Below, piece after piece: positions 52,212 through 55,914 of a DNA stretch of 64,000 bases. The DNA comes from Altererythrobacter sp. H2 (GTDB lineage: Bacteria > Pseudomonadota > Alphaproteobacteria > Sphingomonadales > Sphingomonadaceae), in the NCBI RefSeq assembly GCF_035319885.1, contig NZ_CP141285.1, forward strand, positions 2,170,001 through 2,234,000. The letters are read 5' to 3'. How positions within the stretch are numbered: the first letter of the stretch is position 1; each line of letters opens with the position of its first letter. The position numbers were made by a program, and so were the translations under genes. The notes beneath the pieces are model-generated. The model searched no databases. It worked only from the letters and a program-made list of their open reading frames with translations, and was not told where the DNA came from.

Positions 52212-52232
52212 TATGTTTATGTGGAGGTTGCA

Positions 52233-53993
52233 ATGTCGGCTGGAGAGCAGCGACAGGAAAGATGCGGAGCGGCGCTGCTGGTCGATTGCCTGGCAGCGCA
52301 AGGCGTGGAGTTCGTGTTCGGCTATCCCGGCGGGGCAGTGCTGCCGATCTATGACGAGCTGTTCTCTGATCAGCGCATCCGCCACATCCTCGTCCGGCAC
52401 GAAGCAGGTGCAGCCCATGCCGCCGAAGGCTATGCCCGCTCCACTGGCAAGCCGGGCGTCGTCCTCGTCACCTCCGGCCCGGGCGCAACCAATGCGGTGA
52501 CCGGCATCGCCGACGCCTTCATGGACTCGATCCCGATGGTGGTCATCACCGGCCAGGTACCGACTGCGCTGATCGGGACCGATGCGTTCCAGGAAGCCGA
52601 TACGATCGGAATCACGCGCCACTGCACCAAGCACAACTATCTGGTCAAAGATCCGGACGAACTGCAGTCCGTGATTGAAGAGGCGTTTCGCATCGCCACC
52701 ACCGGCCGCCCCGGCCCGGTGCTGATCGACATTCCCAAGGATGTGCAGATTGCGATGGCCGCATCCGGCCGCGGCAAGGTCGTGCCGGCCACCGCGCGCT
52801 ATCAGCCGCAGATGGCGGGCGCAGAGGCACGCATTGCTGAAGCGATCGAACTGCTCGTCCGTGCGGAGCGGCCAATCCTGTACACTGGTGGCGGCGTGAT
52901 CAATTCCGGCCCGCGCGCCAGCGAGCTGCTGCGCCAGTTGCAGGCGCTGACCGGCGCGCCGGTGACCTCCACCTTGATGGGCCTTGGCGCGTTCCCGGCC
53001 GACCATCCCGACTGGCTCGGGATGCTGGGCATGCACGGGACCTTTGAAGCGAACATGGCGATGAACCGGTGCGACGTTATGCTGTGCGTCGGCGCGCGCT
53101 TCGATGACCGGGTCACTGGAAGGCTCGACGCATTCAGCCCGGATTCGAAGAAGATCCACATCGATATTGACCGGTCTTCGATCAACAAGACGGTGGCGGT
53201 GGACGTGCCGATCGTGGGCGATTGCGCCACGGTGCTGGAACAGCTGATCGCCGCGTGGGGTGGCCGCAAGGCGCAGGACCTGGGCGAATGGAAAGCGCGC
53301 GTCGCAGGATGGCGGGCCCGCGAAAGCCTCGCCTATCCTGACCGCAAAGGCGAATTGATGCCGCAAAGGGCGGTCGAGCGCCTGTTCGCGCTCACCCGCA
53401 CGGCTGATCCGGTCATCACCACCGAAGTCGGCCAGCACCAGATGTGGGCGGCGCAGTATTTCGGCTTCTTCGGCCCCAACCGCTGGCTCACCAGCGGCGG
53501 GCTTGGCACCATGGGCTATGGCCTGCCCGCCGCAATCGGCGCGCAGCTCGGCAATCCGGGGCGGCTGGTGATCGACATTGCGGGTGAAGCGAGCATCCAG
53601 ATGAACATCCAGGAACTCGGCACCGCCAGCCAGTATCGCCTGCCGGTCAAGGTGTTCATCCTCAACAACGAATACATGGGCATGGTCCGCCAATGGCAGG
53701 AACTGACCTATGAGAGCCGTTATTCCAATTCCTACAGCGACAGCCTGCCCGATTTCGTCAAGCTGGCTGAAGCCTACGGCTGGAAGGGCATCCGGATCGA
53801 GGACGAAAGCCAGCTCGATGCCGGAATCGAGGCGATGCTGGCGCACGATGGCCCGGTGATCGTCGATTGCATGGTGTCGAAAAGCGCCAACTGCTTCCCG
53901 ATGATCCCCAGCGGCGCGGCCCACACCGACATGCTGCTCTATGGCGACCATGTCGAAGGGACGATGGACGACGAAGCGAAGGCTTTGGTTTAG
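52233..53993 (+). CDS. ilvB: Acetolactate synthase, large (catalytic) subunit
   Basis: A 586-residue ThDP- and FAD-dependent enzyme that makes acetolactate or acetohydroxybutyrate in valine, leucine and isoleucine synthesis. The catalytic Glu57 is in [27 protein letters not shown], the FAD region [15 protein letters not shown] and the C-terminal [17 protein letters not shown] are typical. The ThDP motif reads G451-E452-A453 with N478-N479 downstream, where the usual form is G-D-G/A; the Mg-binding Asp is replaced by Glu. ATG 52233 has a GTGGAGG site. Confidence 0.95.
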
Positions 53994-54006: not shown

Positions 54007-54885
54007 ATGAAAATCAAGCAACAGAGTGCCGAGCGCCACGTGCTCGCCATCACGGTCGATAACGAGGCGGGTATCCTGGCCAAGATCGCCGGGCTGTTCA
54101 CCGCGCGCGGCTACAACATCGACAGCCTGACCGTGGCCGACATCTCCGATGACCATGCGGTAAGCCGGATCACCATCGTCACCAACGGGCCGCCGGCGGT
54201 GATCGACCAGATCCAGGCCCAGCTCGAACGACTGGTGCCGGTACACAAGGTGGTGGACCTGACCGAGGAAGGCCCGCACGTCGAGCGCGAGCTTGCGCTG
54301 GTCAAGGTCGCCGGCACGGGAGAGAAGCGGGTCGAGGCGCTGCGGCTGGCAGACATCTTCCGCGCCCGACCGGTCGACACCACCACCGAAAGCTTCATCT
54401 TCGAAATCACCGGACCGCCGGACAAGCTCGACAGCTTCATCGCCCTGATGCGGCAGTTGGGGCTGGTCGAGGTGGGCCGGACCGGGATCGTGGGCATGAT
54501 GCGCGGGGCGCAGGGGGCCGATACTCCCAGGTTCAACTCGCAAAGTCCGATTAGCGAAACGCCAAAGCAACCCGATGAGGTCACTGTCTCACCGTTGGCG
54601 GGGCGAACGCACGGCAGACCCCTCGATGACGTAGGACTACCAGGACAAAGTGATGTCACCGATGCCCTACTCGCCTTTCTTTATCGTCAAAACGACTGGA
54701 TCAAACCAAGTGTGACCTACTCCGCACTGTCAGATCATTTCGGACTAACGTCCGCGGCTCTGTCTGCCGCAATGAATGACGGTCGGAACCATTGGGAAAA
54801 TCGCGTTCAGTGGGCGCGGAAAGAACTTGTTGACCGTGGCTTGCTGGACAACAGCCGTCACGGATTTTGGAAGCTTTTCAAGTAG
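54007..54885 (+). CDS. ilvN: Acetolactate synthase small subunit fused to an Mrr_N-like winged-helix domain
   Basis: Residues 1-171 form a normal regulatory subunit: an ACT domain (HVLAITVDNEAGILAKIAGLFTARGYNIDSLTV) and the C-terminal half ending GIVGMMRGAQG, which should give feedback sensing of valine. Instead of stopping, the frame continues about 120 residues. After a linker (172-215), residues 216-292 resemble the Mrr N-terminal winged-helix domain: FGLTSAALSAAMNDGRNHW, ENRVQWARKELVDRGLL and RHGFWKL. The DNA from about 54520 uses codons such as CTA, CAA, AAA and CCA unlike its neighbours, so it looks transferred. Reading frame and stop at 54885 are intact, nine bases before ilvC. Confidence 0.9.
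   Translation: MKIKQQSAERHVLAITVDNEAGILAKIAGLFTARGYNIDSLTVADISDDHAVSRITIVTNGPPAVIDQIQAQLERLVPVHKVVDLTEEGPHVERELALVKVAGTGEKRVEALRLADIFRARPVDTTTESFIFEITGPPDKLDSFIALMRQLGLVEVGRTGIVGMMRGAQGADTPRFNSQSPISETPKQPDEVTVSPLAGRTHGRPLDDVGLPGQSDVTDALLAFLYRQNDWIKPSVTYSALSDHFGLTSAALSAAMNDGRNHWENRVQWARKELVDRGLLDNSRHGFWKLFK

Positions 54886-55914
<1,029 letters not shown>

Follow-up and report, generated by a model that had tools for sequence, protein, structure and literature searches.

What does an Mrr_N domain, a relative of the winged-helix domains of restriction enzymes, do at the C-terminus of IlvN, the regulatory subunit of acetolactate synthase, and how did it get there? The question is raised by a single open reading frame in the 64,000 nucleotides of the Altererythrobacter sp. 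H2 chromosome analysed here (the window). A preliminary description, made from the letters alone, had proposed that a foreign fragment was fused to ilvN within the ilvBNC operon, either as a neutral leftover of a defence gene or as a DNA-binding or protein-binding arm.

Literature searches of open-licence PMC articles, with subscription journals outside their scope, gave no fusion of IlvN or a carboxylase with a winged helix among the matches listed, and core metabolic enzymes joined to a restriction-type sensing domain were likewise absent from these matches. The articles listed for Mrr_N dealt with unrelated subjects. The available portions of two articles, PMC5727371 and PMC11090510, held nothing on such fusions; in that of PMC11090510 the carboxylase is named in the reference list only.

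The fused reading frame

The frame (54007..54885, plus strand) extended from an ATG at 54007-54009 to a TAG at 54883-54885, without an internal stop across its 292 residues, and comprised IlvN, a linker and an Mrr_N winged helix. Residues 1-171 (54007..54519) formed a complete IlvN core that exceeded the cut-offs of NF008864 (215.1 bits against 119), TIGR00119 (172.6 against 56.9) and PF10369 (89.1 against 23.2), with ALS_ss_C placed by Pfam at residues 94-167 and the ACT domains N-terminal of it. The protein resembled the IlvN/IlvH small subunits in that this part was complete and matched the equivalog models, but differed from them by the 121 residues that followed in frame after residue 171, as the preliminary description had stated.

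These residues comprised a linker, residues 172-210 (54520..54636), which from alignment and a low-confidence model is probably disordered, and the winged-helix core, residues 211-292 (54637..54882), identified by Pfam, by the model and by alignment with its relatives; the alignment set these bounds, and the Pfam match was shorter. In the whole-protein Pfam scan, Mrr_N (PF14338) matched residues 235-290 with 40.5 bits (cut-off 29.5, E 3.1e-10) over profile positions 21-77 of 87, and the tail alone scored 42.4 bits against the same cut-off of 29.5, so that the domain earlier recognised from its motifs was borne out. The same scan found no nuclease domain in the fused protein at E values up to 10, again as previously described, and the protein consequently lacked the Mrr catalytic nuclease domain that would make it an Mrr type IV restriction enzyme. 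The likeness to PF14338 consisted of a score above the curated cut-off, the winged-helix model and the NRV..A...L....G.W.L core; the difference was the C-terminal position on a metabolic regulator, with no nuclease, methyltransferase or NTPase as partner.

The fused gene lay between ilvB (52221..53993, plus strand), which encodes the acetolactate synthase large subunit (TIGR00118, 780.5 bits, cut-off 538.35), and ilvC (54895..55914, plus strand; NF004017, 571.3 bits, cut-off 336). Both neighbours exceeded their NCBIfam cut-offs, which placed the fusion inside the ilvBNC operon.

Age of the fusion

Two relatives were compared at this locus, a genome of the same species (G059, an assembly that is 70% complete) and one of the same genus (G001), which was used as outgroup. 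BLAST alignment of G059 with the window gave a match up to 54518 at 97.8% and again from 54894 at 98.1%, such that 375 nt (54519..54893, plus strand) replaced 116 nt of G059, consisting of the last codon base, the stop and the spacer. The G059 IlvN was 100% identical over residues 1-171 and stopped at codon 172. In both G059 and G001, a TGA came directly after MRGAQGA and was followed by 113 nt to the ATG of ilvC. In the lineage of the window, 375 nt of foreign-looking DNA have thus taken the place of the ilvN stop and of the hairpin spacer, and, as judged from these alignments, the fusion is derived and young there, with G059 and G001 keeping the old state. One 10-nt direct repeat pair was found, located inside the insert; no inverted repeat pair was found at the insertion.

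The fusion occurred in one of the three genomes of the genus. Within the family, 260 of 298 genomes had an ilvN match, and the 3' end of ilvN was read in 32 other genomes drawn from these, 29 in one set and a further three (G104, G061 and G031) with long open frames, which proved to extend upstream only. The extension was absent from all 32, each of which had an IlvN that ended at the same position or a few residues away. A family-wide IlvN feature, which would have contradicted the preliminary description, was rejected on this count (0/32).

Because the fusion was present in one assembly and missing from G059 and G001, it could in principle be an assembly or sequencing artefact. This is extremely unlikely, since the host genome (G000) is a single contig of 3.24 Mb with 99.99% completeness and 0.06% contamination, the insert carries an in-frame family domain, and a search of that genome for further copies of the tail gave none at E <= 0.001. 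The genome contained one ilvN match and one Mrr_N match, so the fused gene is the only ilvN copy found.

Composition of the insert and the ilvC junction

The preliminary description had regarded the tail DNA as foreign from its codons, and the third-position GC content (GC3) agreed. In 20-codon blocks it was 0.80-1.00 for residues 1-180 and fell to 0.45-0.67 from residue 181 on; by segment, it was 0.889 in the ilvN core, 0.590 in the linker, 0.512 in the Mrr_N domain and 0.865 in ilvC. By its low GC3, then, the insert is foreign-looking.

The stop of the fused frame was separated from the ilvC ATG by 9 nt, and an AGGA overlapped the stop codon. The spacer that was lost is palindromic; the G059 form was calculated to fold at -54.8 kcal/mol (z -3.73), with none of 200 shuffled sequences folding as well, whereas the 116 nt immediately upstream of ilvC in the window folded like their own shuffles (z 0.10). 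Ribosomes that finish the fused frame would be expected to restart at ilvC, and the immediate change would likely be a tighter translational coupling of ilvC to ilvN together with the loss of the hairpin, not a finished regulatory switch.

Pieces resembling the spacer gave 29 matches in G001, 3 in G000 and 1 in G059, counts in which, the element being a palindrome, both strands may be included. By eye, spacers of this kind separate ilvN from ilvC in L010, L025 and L033, which represent three other genera. Palindromic elements at this site (L003:2013-2128 and the spacers of these three loci) thus occurred, by eye, in several sphingomonad genera.

Structure of the tail

The tail was modelled from five aligned rows (the window and L079-L082). 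The mean pLDDT was 76.6; most of tail residues 41-120 had values of about 90, and the blocks covering tail residues 1-40, on the linker side, were below 60. The predicted elements, in tail numbering, were helices at 43-57, 63-73, 78-83 and 91-105 and strands at 109-110 and 117-119, in the order of a winged helix. VIA-align returned rows with Z up to 9.8 (rmsd 2.2, 68 residues aligned), many of them winged helices and one of them the Rpa2 winged-helix domain (Z 9.6), with the caveat that middling Z values are common in this comparison. No solved structure related to the tail by sequence was found, the five-row profile A4 giving one row at chance level. The full fused protein, folded without an alignment, had a mean pLDDT of 60.9 and a poor tail, and that model was set aside. 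The prediction makes it fairly clear that the tail has a winged-helix fold behind a low-confidence linker, as the preliminary description would lead one to expect.

According to PMC11037411, the winged helix of some type IV enzymes serves as a methyladenine sensor. One could imagine that the tail binds DNA, perhaps marked with N6-methyladenine like that recognised by the DpnI winged helix, and so couples acetolactate synthase, or the valine sensor of this enzyme, to the chromosome or its methylation state. DpnI (4kyw_A) did appear among the Foldseek rows for the tail model, at rank 46 (E 0.28), and a second metabolic enzyme carries a module of the same type (see below). However, the best Foldseek E-value was itself weak (0.01), DpnI was matched no better than many other winged helices, and winged helices bind proteins as well, so that a DNA target for the tail would be hypothetical. 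Like the fused protein, the DpnI-type sensors described in PMC11037411 pair a winged helix with another functional domain, and in DpnI the winged helix is the C-terminal part; theirs is joined to nucleases or NTPases, and the likeness drawn here is one of fold. A functional regulatory fusion of this kind is considered quite improbable.

Distribution of the module

With the tail alone as query, one of 59 relatives was matched, which was G000 itself, and 10 of 385 genomes of the class were matched at E <= 0.01, the best other than G000 being L066, which is of Mrr type by motif. Mrr_N matches occurred in 41 of the 298 family genomes. A two-row profile (A3) matched 29 of 396 genomes of the order; only G000, G824, G829 and G832 scored above 58 bits, the other 25 were below 40 bits, and most of the frames in these 25 carried nuclease-like motifs in a motif test. 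The strong matches besides G000 corresponded to loci L095 (G824), L096 (G829) and L097 (G832). Matches were found in 7 of 60 genomes of the genus of G824, one of them strong, in 3 of 80 of the genus of G829, one strong and a second at 52 bits, and in one of five sampled genomes of the genus of G223. Across the phylum 13 of 398 genomes were matched, none above 47 bits except G000. As far as these searches indicate, the spread of the module is sporadic across the sampled genomes.

A single-sequence GTDB scan with the tail detected no relatives in 32 stretches, and a scan with profile A3 detected four loci in 31 stretches, including L079 (G223). Nothing in the GTDB contigs was nearer as a donor than L079, at 43%, apart from a stretch of 28 residues in L081 that reached 53%. 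No viral contig was matched, and the window tail matched nothing among phages and one weak methyltransferase among plasmids. The module of a further locus, L058, matched 27 plasmid records (methyltransferases, restriction endonucleases and some unannotated), all below 60% identity, and two records of the phage collection, also below 60%; the L096 module matched four plasmid records.

The closest modules

The modules nearest to the window core were L096 (50% identity by alignment), L095 (48%), L058 (43%) and L097 (39%). L058 was the closest to the tail among loci L035-L077 (E 2.4e-15). None of the four has a nuclease, and at 39-50% identity, itself with no nuclease partner, the window core belongs with this nuclease-free set. 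Profile A4 scored its own five rows at 130-144 bits, by construction, and the next frame at 62. The GC3 was 0.48-0.65 in all five modules; for the three carboxylases to which some of them are joined it was 0.81-0.87 over the initial 192 codons.

In L095 and L096, the module stands in frame ahead of a carboxylase. The L095 protein (L135:6549-8978, on G824:C1) is a propionyl-CoA carboxylase alpha subunit of 809 residues with an N-terminal Mrr_N domain followed by the biotin carboxylase, PCC_BT and biotinyl domains. In L096 (L137:5693-6877, on G829:C31), the module is located behind bioB and is in frame with a shortened carboxylase, whose frame ends early at an IS6-type transposase. The Mrr_N frame of L058, likewise behind bioB, begins inside the end of that gene and continues in frame into the biotin carboxylase. 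The carboxylase assignment is complete for L095/L135 and rests on 79-90% identity over 192 carboxylase codons for L096 and L058. The site upstream of the carboxylase may be an insertion hot spot.

The usual carboxylase ATG is kept in L058 and L096, so that separately started carboxylases are possible there, whereas in L095 it is replaced and there is no in-frame ATG, GTG or TTG between codon 61 of the module and codon 145 of the carboxylase part. The L095 fusion therefore looks obligatory, with ATG, GTG and TTG as the starts considered, and hints that a metabolic enzyme may retain an arm of this kind. The L095 and L096 modules are 69% identical, with pN 0.275 and pS 0.865 (saturated), a pattern that fits selection on the protein. 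These carboxylase fusions contain the nearest module sequences found (43-50% identical) and resemble the fused IlvN in having a metabolic enzyme as in-frame partner and a low GC3; they differ in the N-terminal position of the module, in the enzyme and operon concerned and, for L058 and L096, in the retained carboxylase ATG.

Two further genes encode the module alone. L097 (L097:1492-1764, on G832:C1) is a solo gene of 90 residues with a good ribosome-binding sequence, GGAG, ahead of its ATG, and a phosphate-permease-like gene upstream (the PitA model was matched below its cut-off). The more distant L080 (L080:4947-5264) lies directly after trpS in a metagenome-assembled genome labelled Cloacimonadota and, as does the window tail, stops immediately behind the last strand.

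A still broader proposal would be that a family of small stand-alone winged-helix genes, freed from its ties to restriction, travels among the operons of sphingomonads and has been captured repeatedly by metabolic enzymes, at the C-terminus of IlvN and the N-terminus of propionyl-CoA carboxylase alpha, tethering branched-chain and propionate metabolism to DNA and possibly to its methylation state. We regard this proposal as improbable.

Origin of the fusion

Taken together, the observations are probably best explained by a solo winged-helix gene that landed between ilvN and ilvC and was captured as the C-terminal domain of IlvN. On this view, the DNA that arrived would have been a short independent Mrr_N gene similar to those which related bacteria carry solo or joined to carboxylases, a solo ancestor being suggested by L097 and, at a greater distance, L080. 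The core aligns with its relatives through single-residue gaps only. So far, a single genome, of one strain, is known to have the IlvN fusion.

The principal competing explanation is a neutral scar, in which a restriction or methyltransferase gene formerly stood between ilvN and ilvC and a deletion fused its 3' end to ilvN, the tail being tolerated until it decays. In the loci read and the plasmid annotations, Mrr_N was usually accompanied by a nuclease, a methyltransferase or an NTPase, PADLOC matched a type IV enzyme at E 2.3e-5, and the low GC3 and single occurrence would suit a young, unselected insert. Moreover, according to PMC11037411, DpnI and PLD-type enzymes that have been characterised end in a winged helix, and a fragment from the C-terminus of one of them would have the same appearance; by this analogy the tail may possibly be the end of a DpnI-like enzyme. 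On the other hand, the domain preceded the catalytic part in both methyltransferases scanned and in the Mrr-type frames examined, the core shows single-residue gaps only and is closed by a stop as in L080 and L097, and the four nearest modules are without a nuclease. A scar is thus credible but unlikely, and a neutral passenger is possible. The preliminary description was upheld as to the fusion of a foreign fragment; a remnant of a defence gene, as it also proposed, seems less probable than the capture of a solo gene, given nearest relatives that are nuclease-free and either solo or joined to carboxylases.

If a solo gene was captured, its own start would have been lost. The cores of L095, L096, L097 and L080 each have an ATG two or three residues upstream of their LP or FP, and the window has no ATG at the corresponding place. 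The in-frame start codon closest to the window core is a TTG (residue 197), which precedes the core by 14 residues and is badly spaced from a GAGG. The module would therefore be made mainly as a C-terminal arm of IlvN, although a tail started separately from this TTG could also be produced, because the GTG of L058 is 13 residues before its core. The fused protein would be made at about 31 kDa, its IlvN part presumably still folding, binding IlvB and sensing valine. From the model, the arm would be a separate winged helix tethered by a flexible linker, and it probably retains the ability to bind DNA or a partner.

The youth of the fusion and the existence of same-species and same-genus genomes in the old state make domain capture and operon rewiring directly testable at this locus.

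At the carboxylase loci, the DNA upstream of the propionyl-CoA carboxylase gene looked unrelated by eye between species of one genus (L085-L088).
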